NCBI RefSeq assembly: GCF_003268005.1
Contig: NZ_CP014213.1
Coordinates: forward strand, 2,253,501 to 2,317,500
Direction of reading: 5' to 3'
Origin: Methanosphaera sp. BMS
Lineage (GTDB): Archaea > Methanobacteriota > Methanobacteria > Methanobacteriales > Methanobacteriaceae
Length of the DNA: 64,000 nt
The notes below the pieces were generated by a model. That model did no database searches, had not been told where the DNA came from, and worked only from the letters and a program-made list of their open reading frames with translations. A program made the position numbers and the translations under genes. Each line of letters begins with the position of its first letter. Within the stretch, counting starts at the first letter, position 1. Shown here piece by piece: positions 13,451 to 20,814 of this stretch.

Positions 13451-14494
13451 CTAGGATTTCTTTTTTTCGTTAACCGGGCATTTTTCTAATTTTATGTATT
13501 CATTTATTGATTCACGGGTAGTGCCTATTATTAATTTGTATATTTTTATACCGGAGTCTTTATACAGATATTCTTCACATACACCAGAAGCAATAACCCT
13601 TTCATTATTCTTTACAATTCCCGTATAAGTATGAGTAAATGATATTATACTTTCAATATTTCTGGGTCTACCTTCTAAAAATTCAACATTGCTTATTGTA
13701 TATGTAGCTGGATTGTCATAAGAAAGTGAATCATTAATTATGTCACATTTTATCCTAATCTTTTCCAATTGATTAATGCTGACATTCTCCTCGATATCAA
13801 TTTCATCCTCTTTTCTGTTTAATAAAATATCAAACAATGTATTATTAATAACTCCCCTATTATTCTTACGTGATTCATACCATTTGAATTCATTAAAACT
13901 CATGGAATCATCCTTTATACGCTTATTATAAACAAATTCCCAATAATCATCCCCAATAGCATCCAAGCATACATTTTTATCATTCTTTGCATTTGAATAA
14001 AATTCAATTGCCCTTCTATGTTCATCCAGTCCGAATACTATAAAATCAATATCCGATGTTTCATTTTCAAGACCAATCAATGAAGAACCGGTAACACCCA
14101 TATTTTCATAAGCAATGCCTGCACAATCATGAAATGTATCAGACAATAAACAAATCTTCTCATAAAGGGATGATTTGTTTCTGTTTTCCCTGATTTTTTT
14201 CAATCCTAGAATAGGATCATATACTTCAACGACATCCTCCTTTAAAACACCCATCATTTTTTTATTGATTATATTCCACTCGAATAAATAATCAGGATGA
14301 TTCCTTTTTAAATAATCATATGCCTCATTGCTGTTAACCTTTTTATATCTAACACCATCCAAAACTCTATCTCCATCATCACACGGCACATATCTCAAAA
14401 ATGCAATATAATGGGTTTTCGGATGATTATAGCTGTTTGCCGCAAAAAATAGATTGTCCCTAGTTTTTAAATAAAATCTTGTATTGACCTTCAT
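13451..14494 (-). CDS. nucleotidyltransferase-fold protein
   Basis: 347 residues. A central polymerase-beta-like nucleotidyltransferase motif, GVTGSSLIGLENETSDIDF (about residues 130-148), gives the GS and DxD metal-binding residues. The N-terminal 120 residues form a separate domain with YDYLKRNHPDYLFEWN. The C-terminal region, after a 'FLEGRPRNIESIISFTH' stretch, is beta-rich. The target is unknown. It is much longer than the minimal MNT proteins elsewhere in this window and has no HEPN neighbour. The gene stands alone between convergent and divergent neighbours. Confidence 0.75.
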   Translation of the reverse strand: MKVNTRFYLKTRDNLFFAANSYNHPKTHYIAFLRYVPCDDGDRVLDGVRYKKVNSNEAYDYLKRNHPDYLFEWNIINKKMMGVLKEDVVEVYDPILGLKKIRENRNKSSLYEKICLLSDTFHDCAGIAYENMGVTGSSLIGLENETSDIDFIVFGLDEHRRAIEFYSNAKNDKNVCLDAIGDDYWEFVYNKRIKDDSMSFNEFKWYESRKNNRGVINNTLFDILLNRKEDEIDIEENVSINQLEKIRIKCDIINDSLSYDNPATYTISNVEFLEGRPRNIESIISFTHTYTGIVKNNERVIASGVCEEYLYKDSGIKIYKLIIGTTRESINEYIKLEKCPVNEKKKS

Positions 14495-14570: not shown

Positions 14571-15158
14571 ATGAAAATTTATGGAATGGATATGATGCAG
14601 TATTTAAAATGGAATGATGGCAACAAATATGATGGAAGCCAAATAAATCCATCATGGGCTTTTAGGGAATTTGCAGTTAAAGATTCAACAATAGTCTCAT
14701 GGGTTGGCCCCATGGATATTCAATCAGACAACCTTATAGACTATGAAGATGTAGGATTGGATATTAAGGGAAATAAGATGTTACACTTTATAGTAGAACA
14801 CTTTGATGAACAGCCGGGTAACCTACGCCTAATATATCATAGGCAGCGATTGCTTGTTATGATAACAAGAGACATCCTAAAGGATTATTCTGTGGATACA
14901 ACTCAAGACGGGGATGACATATTCATAGACAATAAGAAGTTATCCGTATCAATAGCATCGGCATCAATAAGTTCAATGAAGATACATTTTGCATTAAACA
15001 TCACTACACAGGGAACACCGGATGATGTGGAAACCTCAGCACTGGAGGATAATATGGATATGAATGAATTATCTGCCTTACAGGATAAAATAGCAAATGA
15101 ATACATTCATTTCATGGATGATATTGAAAAGGACATAACAAAGACAAAAGTATTTTAG
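14571..15158 (+). CDS. DUF366 family protein, first gene of the queD-queE operon
   Basis: 195 residues matching DUF366: the KYDGSQINPSWAFREFAVKDSTIVSWVGP block at residues 20-48 is the family core, with the conserved DGSQI and WA residues. It lies directly upstream of queD (stop codon within the ribosome binding site of the next gene) and queE. The genomic link suggests a part in preQ0/archaeosine synthesis or a linked pterin-like step, but no biochemical role is known to me. No strong ribosome binding site is seen before ATG 14571 apart from a distant GTGAT. Confidence 0.82.
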   Translation: MKIYGMDMMQYLKWNDGNKYDGSQINPSWAFREFAVKDSTIVSWVGPMDIQSDNLIDYEDVGLDIKGNKMLHFIVEHFDEQPGNLRLIYHRQRLLVMITRDILKDYSVDTTQDGDDIFIDNKKLSVSIASASISSMKIHFALNITTQGTPDDVETSALEDNMDMNELSALQDKIANEYIHFMDDIEKDITKTKVF

Positions 15159-15167
15159 GTGATTAAT

Positions 15168-15659
15168 ATGATGAAAATAAATTTAGATGGAATACACACG
15201 AACTTACGTTTTTCAGCAGCACACATGGTAATAGGACACCAGTCCTGTGGAAAGATACATGGACACAGTTACATAGTGGATGTTGAAATAGAGGGTAAAC
15301 GTACCGGACAATTCGGATTTGTAATAGACTTCAAGGTATTAAAGGACATCACACGAAAAATATGCAAATCACTCGATCATAGGGTGCTAATACCATATGA
15401 CAGTCCTGATTTAAACGTAACGTTTGAGGATGACAATTCAATAGAGTTCACTGTACTTGACTGTCTGGAATATAAGCTACCAAAACAGGATGTAGTACTG
15501 CTTCCAATAGAATCCACAACTGCAGAATCTTTATCCACATACATCACCGAAAAGATCGTTGATGAACTGGAGGATAAGGACACTTTAAATTACATCGAAG
15601 TACAAGTCAATGAGGGAATAGGACAGGGTGCTTCATATCGTAAATACATAGAACTTTAA
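15168..15659 (+). CDS. queD: QueD-like 6-carboxytetrahydropterin synthase
   Basis: 163 residues of the 6-pyruvoyl/carboxy-tetrahydropterin synthase family. The zinc ligands are His19 in FSAAHMV, and His31 and His33 in GKIHGHSY, with the catalytic cysteine probably Cys27 in QSCGKIHGH. A conserved C-terminal Glu lies in VQVNEGIGQGASY. The frame runs back to a GTG at 15159, but GGTGAT at 15158-15163 is followed four bases later by ATG 15168, so that start is used. It produces the pterin intermediate used by QueE for preQ0, the precursor of archaeosine in tRNA. Confidence 0.9.
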   Translation: MMKINLDGIHTNLRFSAAHMVIGHQSCGKIHGHSYIVDVEIEGKRTGQFGFVIDFKVLKDITRKICKSLDHRVLIPYDSPDLNVTFEDDNSIEFTVLDCLEYKLPKQDVVLLPIESTTAESLSTYITEKIVDELEDKDTLNYIEVQVNEGIGQGASYRKYIEL

Positions 15660-15690
15660 TTATTTCTTTAATAAATGGGGAGGTTTTACT

Positions 15691-16386
15691 ATCACGGTCA
15701 ATATTAGTGAAATATTTTCAAGTATACAGGGAGAAGGAAAATTCATAGGTAAACGACAGATATTCATACGATTTGCAGGATGCAATATTGACTGTAAGTA
15801 CTGTGATACCTTGGAGAGCAAATCCTTCGATACGGGCAAGTCTTATTCTTATGAACAGTTGAATGATGAGATTCAATCTTTAATGACCGAAGATTTCCAT
15901 TCATTGGAAATAACCGGTGGAGAACCGCTTGTTCATGCGGAATATATTAAGGAATTCTTAAACACATATCCATATCCGGCAATGCTTGAGACAAATGCAA
16001 CACTGCCTGATAATCTACTGCTATTGAAGGATGTAATCAGCATAGTCTCTATGGATATAAAATTACCCGAACATTTTGATGATCAATTACAGTGGAAACA
16101 GGTGTATTTAAATGAGTTGGAATCAATCAGGATTATGCAAAAAGAGAATATGGATTATTATCTTAAGATTGTCGTAAGTGATGATACGCCTTTGGAGGTT
16201 ATCCAAAAAATACTTGATGACTTAACAAAAATTCAATCAGATGACATATTGCTGGTCATTCAACCTGTAAGTCCTATGGAAAAATGGACTGATAAGACAC
16301 ACCTGTTTGAAATATCCGAACTTGTGGGTAAGTATTATCCCGTATCAATCATTCCTCAGATTCATAAGTACATGCAAATCGATTGA
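15691..16386 (+). CDS. queE: QueE, 7-carboxy-7-deazaguanine synthase (radical SAM), non-AUG start
   Basis: The homologous sequence begins at 15691 (VNISEIFSSIQGEGKFIGKR) and contains the radical SAM motif C31-x3-C35-x2-C38 in GCNIDCKYCDT. There is no ATG, GTG or TTG in frame before the TTG at 15811, which would remove the cluster motif. GGGGAGG (15677-15683) is placed seven bases before an ATC codon at 15691, so ATC is the best start. ACG 15694 or ATT 15703 are alternatives. This gives about 231 residues, normal for QueE. Either a rare start is used or the base was mutated or misread. The enzyme forms the 7-deazaguanine ring for archaeosine. Confidence 0.85.
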   Translation: MTVNISEIFSSIQGEGKFIGKRQIFIRFAGCNIDCKYCDTLESKSFDTGKSYSYEQLNDEIQSLMTEDFHSLEITGGEPLVHAEYIKEFLNTYPYPAMLETNATLPDNLLLLKDVISIVSMDIKLPEHFDDQLQWKQVYLNELESIRIMQKENMDYYLKIVVSDDTPLEVIQKILDDLTKIQSDDILLVIQPVSPMEKWTDKTHLFEISELVGKYYPVSIIPQIHKYMQID

Positions 16387-16599: not shown

Positions 16600-19500
16600 A
16601 TGAAAAAACTAAATAAGAGCATAATGTTATTTATCACATTGTTGATATGCGTCATTTTCTTATCAGGTATTGTAACAGCAAACGACTCATCAAGTACATT
16701 CATAACGGATGAATCTTCATCAATGATTAATGAGAATGTTGCTGATACATCAGATAATCAAATGACTCTGCTAAATGAAATAAACGATAATGACATTCAG
16801 ACAGGCATGCAAAGTAGTAAAAAAGATAAAAACATAAAGGATGATACAAAGCTACAAACAGTTTATGTTAATTCCGGGGCAAGCCAATCAAATACGGGTG
16901 AAGACAGACAAAATCCTACAACATTAAACAATGCCCTCAATAACGTTGCCGACGGCGGAACAATATATCTGATAACTGATTCGTTTACAGATACATACAA
17001 CTTGACATCAACGTTATCTCTAAGCAGATATTCAACGAACATAAACTCATTAAACATCATCGGAGAAGAAAATAAAAACATTACAATCTCTGGTAATAAC
17101 AATACACAGATATTCAATATATATTCAACAACCGTCAATATTTCAAACATTAACTTTAAAGATACGCAATTGGATTCATCCAGCAGTATATATGCAAGCA
17201 GTTCAACATTAAATTTCATAAACTGCAGTTTCGCGAATAATTATCGTAAGGATTATGGGGCAAGCATCTACGCATCATATTCCACCATCAACTTAAACAA
17301 TTGTAAATTCGACAACAATACGGCTAATTACGGTGGGGCAATATATCTAACAAGATCCAATTTAACGGTTGATTCATCAGAATTCAATGATAACAATGCA
17401 TTCAGTGGGGCGGCAATCTATGCATTAAATTCTAAACTAACAGTCAATTCATCAACATACACAAGAAATAATGCAAGTTTCGGATCCTCCGTATATGCTC
17501 TTAAATCCAACATCACCAGTGGTAATACAAGATTTATCAATAACACCGCACTGTATTATGGTGGAGCAATCATTCATCTTAGCGAAGGAAAAACAGTTAT
17601 AAACAATTCGTCATTCATTTCAAACGGTGCCCGATACGGTGGAGCGGTTTATGTAATGCAATCCGATTTAAACGTTACCTATTCCGTATTTGAAAACAAC
17701 ACCGCCCAGTCGGCATCAGCCATATACACATATAACAATACGGTTCATATTAAAAATAACTGTATTGTAGACAACTGTTTAAACAATTCATTAATATCAA
17801 TGGCATATCCGAAAAGTTACATCCTTGATGAGAACTGGTGGGGAGTGAATAATCCGGATTTCTTTAAATTAACGGGAGGTTATATCCCAGATACATGGGT
17901 ATTGATGACATTTAAAAATAATACGTCAACACAAACGGATAAACTAAATCTAACGGTATCCATCAATCAATTATCCGGTCAAAACACTCTTCAAAATCCA
18001 ATACCAACAAGAAAAGTGATATTTTCCTCAGAAAGCGGTGAATTTGATAATGAAGTGATGGATATATCAACAAGCGTAACTAATGGATATTCCGGTGATT
18101 CAACGCTTTATGCAAGAATAGATAATCAGTATATGCAATTAAACAGTAAAATAATCCCATCCCTTCTAATGGATGATTACATTACAAACGAAAGCAGCAT
18201 TAACCTTACAATAACTGCCAATAAGGACATATCAGGTACGTTTAACTTAACATTAAACAACTATACCTCAAAGTTGACTGCCAAACAAAAAACAAGATTG
18301 TACTATCCAATATCCGACTTAACTCCGGGAGAATACATCATCAACTTAACGTATATGGGAAATACGAAGTATGATACTGCAAGTGTAATCTCTCATTTGG
18401 TGGTTCAATCAAAGAATTACACTCAAAATGAAACAATACTTCCAACATTAACTAAAGAGACAATTAACTCCACAACATTGCCATCCAAATATAATCTTTT
18501 GGACTTGGATTTACTTACTCCTGTAAAGTCACAGGGATCAGCGGGTAGCTGTGTATCATTTGCAGCAGTTGGAGTAATGGAATCGGCCTTAAAGAAATTA
18601 ACCAATATGACCTATGATTTATCTGAAAACAATGTAAAAAACATGTTTAAGAAATATTCAATTCTGGGCTTATCCGGTTTGGAGCCCAATGATGGAGGAT
18701 ATGACATGGAACCCGTTGGTTATATGGCCAGTGGATATGGTCCTGTACTGGAAAATCTGGATGAATACAACACACAATCCCACATCTCCAACATATTCGA
18801 ACCGCTAATCAGGGTACAGAATATATATTTCATACCTGCACGTAATAATTTCACGGACAACGATAAAATCAAGGAAGCTATAATGAAATACGGTGCCATG
18901 TATACCGGTGTAAAATTAAGTAGTTCATTAAACCAGTATAATGTCGGCGTTAATCAATCAACACATGCCGTTTGTATTGTAGGATGGGATGATACGTACA
19001 GCAGAACTAATTTCTCACCTAATGCTCCTGGAAATGGTGCATTCATTATAAAAAATTCATGGGGAGAAAATACTGGAAATAACGGTTATCAATATGTTTC
19101 ATATTATGATAGTGTAATAGGCAACATCCCATATGTCGGTGATTATAACTCATTAAACTTTGTAATAGACTGTGACAACAGTTATAATTACTCCAACATC
19201 TATCAATACGACAGTGTGGTTTACGTCTATACATTAGGGGATACCGATGGTCAATACTGGATAAACAACTCATATACCATCCAAAAAGATGAGGTAATAT
19301 CTGCCGTCGGAACATACTTTATTGATGATTCGGAATATGAAATGAAAGTCTATATAAACAATAACCTCGTTACAACAAAATCCGCTAAGTTAACCCAGCC
19401 TGGTTATCAAACAATACAACTGGATAACTTCTATCGTGTAAAGAAAAATGATGAGGTAATGGTGGTCATCCGCATTAAGCAAAACATCGGGGATGGTAAC

Positions 19501-20814
19501 ATTTATGTGCCGTTACATGATAATGAATATCCAATAGCCTACTCTAATCCCAAATCATTCATAAGTTATACGGGATTTCAGTATGAAAACTTAAAAAGTC
19601 AGGATACGGTAGCACCTATAAAGGTATACACCATGGATGTGGCGGAATTTGACACAAACGTAGATGTGGATTTAAGAAGCATCAATATAAAAACTGATAT
19701 AACCAATTTGGATTCTGATGCAAAACTGTACTATAAAATAAACGGGGAATTTATTAAGGATTCTGAGGATAACATAATATTCACGGATTTGACGGCAAAT
19801 GACTCAAGCGTTGAATTAATCTATTACAAGGACACCCTAACCGGAAACAATGTTACATTGGATACCATATTATCATATAAGGGATTGAACATTACAAAAT
19901 CATTGGAATTCAATCCAATTAGGGAAATACGATTGGAAATTGATAATATAACTGCATATATCAACACCCCTATATCAATATCACTTAATGTTACCAATCA
20001 GGACAATGAAAGATTAACAGGTGGATATGTGGTATTTAATGATGTGTATGGTAATAGCCTGGGTCAAGCAGATGTAATTGATGGACTGGCCACAATCACG
20101 CTTACATTCGATGATTATTATGATGATGTGCTAAGCGTAACCTACTTTGATAAGGATAATCAACTGCTAACAGAAAACACAACCTCATTAACGGTTAAAA
20201 AGCATGAAGTCATAATTCAAATGGAGGATATCGTTGCAAATCCGGGGGAAACCGTGACGTTGACTGCTAGGATAACTGATGAAGCAGGTTCCAACATTGA
20301 AAACGGTAAGGTGGTCTTCAAAATTAATGGTAAAACACTAAAAGATGTTAATGGCAAGGTAATCTATGTAAAAGTGAGGGATGGAATAGTATCAACTCAA
20401 TATACTATAGCAAGTAATACTACAAACGCTAATTTAACTGTTCAGATAACATACTCCGGTTCAAACAAATACGATTCATCTAAAAATGAATCTACCATAA
20501 CAATCAATCCATTAACGCCGGAACTTAGATGTGAGGATATCACTGCCAACAAATCCGGTCAGATAACATTGAAGGCTTGGATAAATGACGGTGACAATAA
20601 CATAAACAATGGAAAGATAGTATTCAAAATCAATGGTAAAACGATAAAGGATGAAAACGGTAAGGTGATATATGCCAAAGTAGTAAACGGAAGTGTCGCC
20701 GTTAACTATACCCTACCTGATTCCATGAATGCCAAAAACTATACAATTACGGCGGTTTTAATATCCTCGGACTATCCAAGACTGGAAGATACTAAGACAT
20801 TGACCGTACTTTAG
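16600..20814 (+). CDS. adhesin-like surface protein 1 with papain-like (C1) peptidase domain
   Basis: 1404 residues. A signal peptide (hydrophobic residues 8-27, cleavage near VTANDSS) is followed by a right-handed beta-helix of about 23-residue repeats (GGAIY, SGAAIY, GGAVY, about residues 90-400). Next come a beta-rich linker and a peptidase domain with the C1 catalytic set: Gln645 and Cys651 in QGSAGSCVSFA, His789 in STHAVCIVGWDD, and Asn819 in IIKNSWGEN. Ig-like repeats end the protein, the last two holding VFKINGKT. The canonical CGSCW is altered to SAGSCV, but the triad is intact. It is exported and probably acts at the pseudomurein surface on peptide or protein bonds. The target is unknown. 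ATG 16600 follows GAGGGA. Confidence 0.88.
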   Translation: MKKLNKSIMLFITLLICVIFLSGIVTANDSSSTFITDESSSMINENVADTSDNQMTLLNEINDNDIQTGMQSSKKDKNIKDDTKLQTVYVNSGASQSNTGEDRQNPTTLNNALNNVADGGTIYLITDSFTDTYNLTSTLSLSRYSTNINSLNIIGEENKNITISGNNNTQIFNIYSTTVNISNINFKDTQLDSSSSIYASSSTLNFINCSFANNYRKDYGASIYASYSTINLNNCKFDNNTANYGGAIYLTRSNLTVDSSEFNDNNAFSGAAIYALNSKLTVNSSTYTRNNASFGSSVYALKSNITSGNTRFINNTALYYGGAIIHLSEGKTVINNSSFISNGARYGGAVYVMQSDLNVTYSVFENNTAQSASAIYTYNNTVHIKNNCIVDNCLNNSLISMAYPKSYILDENWWGVNNPDFFKLTGGYIPDTWVLMTFKNNTSTQTDKLNLTVSINQLSGQNTLQNPIPTRKVIFSSESGEFDNEVMDISTSVTNGYSGDSTLYARIDNQYMQLNSKIIPSLLMDDYITNESSINLTITANKDISGTFNLTLNNYTSKLTAKQKTRLYYPISDLTPGEYIINLTYMGNTKYDTASVISHLVVQSKNYTQNETILPTLTKETINSTTLPSKYNLLDLDLLTPVKSQGSAGSCVSFAAVGVMESALKKLTNMTYDLSENNVKNMFKKYSILGLSGLEPNDGGYDMEPVGYMASGYGPVLENLDEYNTQSHISNIFEPLIRVQNIYFIPARNNFTDNDKIKEAIMKYGAMYTGVKLSSSLNQYNVGVNQSTHAVCIVGWDDTYSRTNFSPNAPGNGAFIIKNSWGENTGNNGYQYVSYYDSVIGNIPYVGDYNSLNFVIDCDNSYNYSNIYQYDSVVYVYTLGDTDGQYWINNSYTIQKDEVISAVGTYFIDDSEYEMKVYINNNLVTTKSAKLTQPGYQTIQLDNFYRVKKNDEVMVVIRIKQNIGDGNIYVPLHDNEYPIAYSNPKSFISYTGFQYENLKSQDTVAPIKVYTMDVAEFDTNVDVDLRSINIKTDITNLDSDAKLYYKINGEFIKDSEDNIIFTDLTANDSSVELIYYKDTLTGNNVTLDTILSYKGLNITKSLEFNPIREIRLEIDNITAYINTPISISLNVTNQDNERLTGGYVVFNDVYGNSLGQADVIDGLATITLTFDDYYDDVLSVTYFDKDNQLLTENTTSLTVKKHEVIIQMEDIVANPGETVTLTARITDEAGSNIENGKVVFKINGKTLKDVNGKVIYVKVRDGIVSTQYTIASNTTNANLTVQITYSGSNKYDSSKNESTITINPLTPELRCEDITANKSGQITLKAWINDGDNNINNGKIVFKINGKTIKDENGKVIYAKVVNGSVAVNYTLPDSMNAKNYTITAVLISSDYPRLEDTKTLTVL

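Follow-up and report, generated by a model that had tools for sequence, protein, structure and literature searches.

The window analysed here is a stretch of 64,000 nucleotides of Methanosphaera sp. BMS, part of a 2.87-Mb single-contig genome. An apparent cluster of three genes, DUF366 - queD - queE, lies at positions 14571-16386 of the window, with the following features:

14571..15158, plus strand: DUF366 gene (Pfam PF04017), the first gene of the apparent three-gene cluster.
15159..15659, plus strand: queD (6-carboxytetrahydropterin synthase family), matched by Pfam PTPS, with the NCBIfam QueD match below its cut-off; its frame differs from that of queE.
15677..15683, plus strand: Shine-Dalgarno sequence GGGGAGG, 7 nt 5' of the ATC, with a predicted anti-Shine-Dalgarno pairing of -11.3 kcal/mol.
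15691..15693, plus strand: ATC, the putative near-cognate start codon of queE, in a column that is ATG in the family orthologues from other genera and ATT, ATC, GTT or ACG in the genus.
15691..16386, plus strand: queE (7-carboxy-7-deazaguanine synthase), 231 aa, start ATC, stop TGA, identified by Radical_SAM, PDB matches and an orthologue alignment.
15811..15813, plus strand: TTG, the first canonical in-frame start codon, 3' of the CxxxCxxC motif.

The minus strand at 13451-14494 encodes a protein of 347 aa that matches a nucleotidyltransferase domain weakly and none of the NCBIfam models. Located 3' of queE, at 16600-20814, is an adhesin-like protein of 1404 aa that apparently contains a cysteine protease segment of papain type (QGSAGSCVSFAAVGVMES).

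The queE frame is open over 15652-16386, following an in-frame TAG at 15649-15651 and ending in the TGA at 16384-16386. A preliminary description of the window had claimed that this frame lacks ATG, GTG and TTG ahead of the TTG at 15811, that the radical SAM motif and conserved N-terminus are encoded 5' of that TTG, and that GGGGAGG is seven bases before the ATC at 15691. These observations are borne out. There is no canonical start from the in-frame stop to codon 40, positions 15691-15804 encode the conserved QueE N-terminus (ITVNISEIFSSIQGEGKFIG...CNIDCKYC), and the GGGGAGG is followed by TTTTACT (7 nt) and then ATC. Seven nucleotides is also the peak of the GGAGG-to-ATG spacing in G014, the complete genome of a relative. 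Read from the ATC, the window QueE is ITVNISEIFSSIQGEGKFIGKRQIFIRFAGCNIDCKYCDT..., a residue-for-residue match with QueE sequences of other genera that start MKAPIIEIFSS... The TTG at 15811 is the first canonical codon and could be taken for the start of a shorter protein; however, it falls past the third cluster cysteine and therefore is not a functional queE start. Initiation at a downstream TTG or ATG is very unlikely in the other species as well, since the invariant ExFSSxQGEG segment would be lost, together with the CxxxCxxC cluster ligands in the window, and the downstream canonical codons are at differing places from species to species (codons 16-97).

The product of queE, a tRNA-modification enzyme, has a Pfam Radical_SAM match above cut-off. 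The NCBIfam QueE models cover particular subtypes (Clostridium, B. subtilis, E. coli and gamma-proteobacterial) and match the window protein at best with 75 bits against cut-offs of 200-300, and the PDB matches are three QueE sequences only (5tgs, 6nhl and 4njg). Genes for QueC and the archaeosine TGT (arcTGT) are present elsewhere in the genome, thus the pathway needs QueE. Similarity to the solved QueE chains, the adjoining queD and the presence of the rest of the pathway together support the assignment of this gene as queE. A second QueE-like match is found in each genome, with an identity of only about 30% across part of its length; these matches are therefore not obvious replacements.

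The gene was aligned with 19 orthologues from the genus and 10 from the family. The QGEG motif and the cluster motif do not vary, and Cys31, Cys35 and Cys38 of the CxxxCxxC motif are invariant across 16 aligned orthologues. For well-separated species pairs, dN is 0.07-0.28 against a dS of 0.6-2.6, and the frame is intact in all 20 of the Methanosphaera genomes. By these comparisons queE is a working gene under purifying selection.

Across the 20 genomes of the genus, the aligned start codon is ATT in 12, ATC in four (two of these being identical in queE), GTT in two and ACG in one; the last, G016, is the deepest-branching species and has ATT then ATG at the start column. The aligned codon is therefore non-canonical in 19 of the 20. 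The exact start is uncertain in the two GTT species because ATT directly follows the GTT. In the other genera of the family, ATG is at this column in all ten loci that were read. A named collection yielded 80 queE loci; a canonical start is present within 25 codons of the motif in 77 of them, and the other three are exactly the three Methanosphaera loci. No canonical start is present from the in-frame stop to at least codon 16 in 17 of the 19 non-AUG species. Two species (L010 and L013) have an in-frame ATG five to six codons upstream, but it is before or overlaps the Shine-Dalgarno sequence.

The preliminary description had allowed for a G-to-C change or a sequencing error at an ancestral start, and had proposed that this base be compared in other strains. 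The nearest relative has ATT rather than ATG, and independent genomes of the other species of the genus also have no canonical start, so its absence cannot be put down to sequencing error or to recent mutation. A missing AUG alone would fit a decaying pseudogene or an error at the start, a reading that is scarcely credible against the intact frames, the strong purifying selection, the invariant catalytic motifs and the same absence in independent assemblies.

With queD immediately 5' of queE, and with an ATG at 15674 that is out of frame and precedes the Shine-Dalgarno sequence in the window, stop readthrough or programmed frameshifting might yield QueE, either joined on to QueD or begun at an upstream AUG. 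The frame offset between queD and queE takes all three values among the species, and for this reason frameshifting or readthrough from queD is rejected. In addition, the spacing of the two genes varies between an overlap of 11 nt and a gap of 31 nt, an in-frame TAA immediately precedes the ATT in three species, and the out-of-frame AUG is not consistent among loci, making any such route most improbable. A different upstream start in relatives, which the preliminary description had given as grounds for refutation, was looked for and not found. An Rfam search for an RNA element or riboswitch at the queD-queE junction returned no match of note.

In the QueE tree, G016 is sister to the clade of the 19 others with support of 100/98. 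Since G016 is outside this clade, the simplest history is a single loss of AUG with no return at that position. On this history, the loss would date to an ancestor shared by all known Methanosphaera other than the deepest-branching species. After the loss, the codon moved among AUU, AUC, GUU and ACG, and AUG, GUG and UUG have not come back at that position; synonymous sites of queE are saturated across the genus, yet AUG was not regained. Third-base G is rare, at 8% of fourfold sites and absent from 7 of 19 fourfold columns, so the continued absence of AUG is not statistically remarkable when taken alone. The start column also differs from the other columns of invariant isoleucine. It has ATT or ATC and no ATA in the 15 AUY species, whereas all nine of the other invariant isoleucine columns carry 3 to 11 ATA. 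This codon is therefore not behaving as an ordinary internal isoleucine codon.

The mean predicted pairing of the queE leader with the anti-Shine-Dalgarno is -9.6 kcal/mol in 19 Methanosphaera species, against -5.6 kcal/mol for 609 ATG genes of G014 and about -4.6 kcal/mol for queE of other genera. The anti-Shine-Dalgarno was assumed to be the standard archaeal sequence, the rRNA being masked in the genomes used. Rank tests give P values of about 1e-7, which ignore the relatedness of the sequences and so overstate the evidence. As judged from these predicted energies, a much stronger Shine-Dalgarno sequence accompanies the loss of AUG, and the start site has co-evolved.

The proposal of the preliminary description that queE starts at AUC, or at another codon that is not AUG, GUG or UUG, is strongly supported. 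The layout of Shine-Dalgarno and ATC is more than a coincidence, given the spacing peak of 7 nt in G014 and the presence of the same kind of layout in 19 of the 20 Methanosphaera genomes. From the sequence comparisons we strongly infer initiation at the AUC at 15691, and it is very likely that Met-tRNAi initiates there, helped by the strong Shine-Dalgarno. The suggestion of the preliminary description that the amount of QueE is limited in this way is plausible. The ordinary initiator Met-tRNA would decode AUC or AUU through two of the three anticodon pairs, and the unusually strong Shine-Dalgarno, at optimal spacing, would keep the codon positioned in the P site of the ribosome and compensate for the weak pairing. 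Methionine would be inserted at the AUC, giving an N-terminus of (M)TVNISEIFSSIQGEGK with methionine rather than isoleucine first, or with the methionine removed. A purpose for the weak start may be conjectured: QueE consumes SAM and Fe-S, and the start may keep this enzyme low relative to QueD. Its output might also be tunable by initiation-fidelity factors such as aIF1.

A special initiator tRNA was considered and rejected. ARAGORN identified in G014 a single initiator-like tRNA-Met(CAU), of standard type, and a tRNA-Ile(GAU) that is ordinary, and no initiator tRNA with an isoleucine anticodon was found in this search, which may miss some tRNAs. The archaeal factor aIF1 has a destabilising effect on initiation complexes formed with non-AUG mRNAs (PMC6237735) and is as such the natural candidate for the discriminating factor. 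The aIF1 of G014 has an ordinary sequence and an ATG start. In that gene (G014:C1:1021560, minus strand) the ATG is unusually distant from the Shine-Dalgarno (about 11 nt) and there is an in-frame ATA two codons upstream, nearer to it. A study of coupled gene pairs cites a ranking of all 64 codons as starts in which ATT comes seventh, with about 0.3% of the efficiency of the best codon (PMC10666635).

Other genes were sought in which the conserved N-terminus extends upstream of any canonical start, comparing the complete G014 with about half of the G008 genome plus the window. A first, loose screen gave 649 pairs that were mostly spurious (aligned 5' leaders and shadow ORFs) and was replaced by a gene-filtered, Shine-Dalgarno-anchored screen. 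queE ranked first, and about ten more genes have an AUH or other near-cognate codon at the Shine-Dalgarno-anchored position in this partial, two-genome screen. Their names are readings of the sequences rather than the result of family searches:

hisH, G014:C1:1693325: ATT.
Hydrogenase-maturation protease, G014:C1:1388945 and G008:C1:208120, both minus strand: ATA directly after TAA in both species.
ATP-grasp protein: ATT at the anchored position.
Two adhesin-like secreted proteins, G014:C1:1258039 and G014:C1:1303010 (minus strand): GGAGG-7nt-ATT, with the G008 homologues likewise.
LonB-type protease: ATA at the anchored position.
Homocitrate/isopropylmalate synthase-like enzyme: ATC in G014, ATG in G008.
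Homocysteine-synthesis-type protein: ATA at the anchored position.
purE, G008: ATT.
TFB with a long conserved N-terminal extension and GRPRK-rich (AT-hook-like) repeats, G014:C1:1529343 and G008:C1:359170: apparent ACG start behind GGAGG.
Signal peptidase, G008: CTG.

Where the codon was picked by Shine-Dalgarno spacing alone, 13 of 30 missing-start cases are AUH, compared with 10% of codons, although the 30 include some orthologue pairs or spurious frames. Most other species of the genus have a hydrogenase-maturation protease frame that is open for 166-167 aa, which suggests that the layout is the same there. The hisH start position in 19 Methanosphaera genomes is ATT in 14, TTG in four, GTG in one and ATG in none; in order-level relatives it is mostly ATG or TTG. 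The alternation of ATT with TTG and GTG at one orthologous start means that ATT is very probably the start codon, and the swap is natural evidence that AUU initiates. The outgroups of queE and hisH suggest that widespread AUH starts are a trait specific to Methanosphaera.

These other genes bear upon what the weak start is for. With the same AUC start for queE, and differing on function only, it may be that there is tolerance without purpose: a strong Shine-Dalgarno lets the machinery accept AUH, and AUG was lost by drift, with compensation by the Shine-Dalgarno and no regulatory role. This is quite possible, if somewhat under an even chance. It is favoured by the roughly ten unrelated genes of G014 and G008 with AUH, ACG or CTG at the anchored position, by those that vary, such as the homocitrate/isopropylmalate synthase-like gene, and by the rarity of G at third positions. 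However, queE has in 19 genomes never gone back to a canonical start at that position despite saturated synonymous sites, and the start column excludes ATA, which drift would allow.

The regulatory reading starts from the weak queE start in nearly every known Methanosphaera species which, with the other genes, indicates that the lineage tolerates weak starts and probably uses them to keep proteins scarce. A widened start repertoire throughout the genus (AUU, AUC and AUA, and occasionally ACG, GUU and CUG, with a strong Shine-Dalgarno) may act as a translational attenuator, a suggestion that we put at close to, but just short of, even. If true, both queE and hisH would be genes fixed at low output, possibly tuned by aIF1 or by initiation fidelity, and gene finders of the standard kind would miss such genes or misplace their starts. 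Archaeal starts other than AUG, GUG and UUG are regarded as exceptions, and gene finders normally ignore them. A genus-wide AUY start that is stable in evolution, on a housekeeping gene, coupled with a change in the Shine-Dalgarno and joined by further genes of this type, is a natural system for archaeal start-codon choice, in which one may ask whether aIF1 discrimination regulates as IF3 does in bacteria. Gene models in a common gut methanogen would be corrected as well.

No genus-wide non-canonical start in archaea was found among the open-access papers searched, and we know of no earlier archaeal system of weak-start attenuation. There are known systems in bacteria. Escherichia coli infC has an AUU start subject to initiation-factor discrimination. 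It is similar to queE in its AUU-type start, but infC autoregulates the fidelity factor itself and no such loop is shown for queE. In Staphylococcus aureus, ccpN (AUA) and cvfC1 (AUU) have conserved starts with an extended Shine-Dalgarno and an output below that of AUG (PMC13009471). They share with queE a conserved non-canonical AUH-type start and a strong Shine-Dalgarno, but are bacterial, with IF3 as the fidelity factor and with proof from profiling, whereas queE is archaeal and would have aIF1 as the discriminating factor. The GTC start of Streptomyces sigR is repressed by IF3 (PMC5472188). Here, a non-canonical start conserved in a genus limits one protein of a co-transcribed pair, to which queE can be likened; sigR is however bacterial, GUC and a regulator, whereas the start of queE is mostly AUY and the gene encodes an enzyme and adjoins queD. 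The queE genes of Methanobrevibacter and other Methanobacteriaceae are orthologous, usually beside queD, and have the same N-terminal motif as in Methanosphaera, but they have ATG at the column in almost every locus, a weaker Shine-Dalgarno or none, and often overlap the queD stop. It is with ccpN, cvfC1, sigR and infC that queE of Methanosphaera may be placed, having no canonical start for its conserved N-terminus, conservation of this state across the genus, and a strong Shine-Dalgarno sequence.
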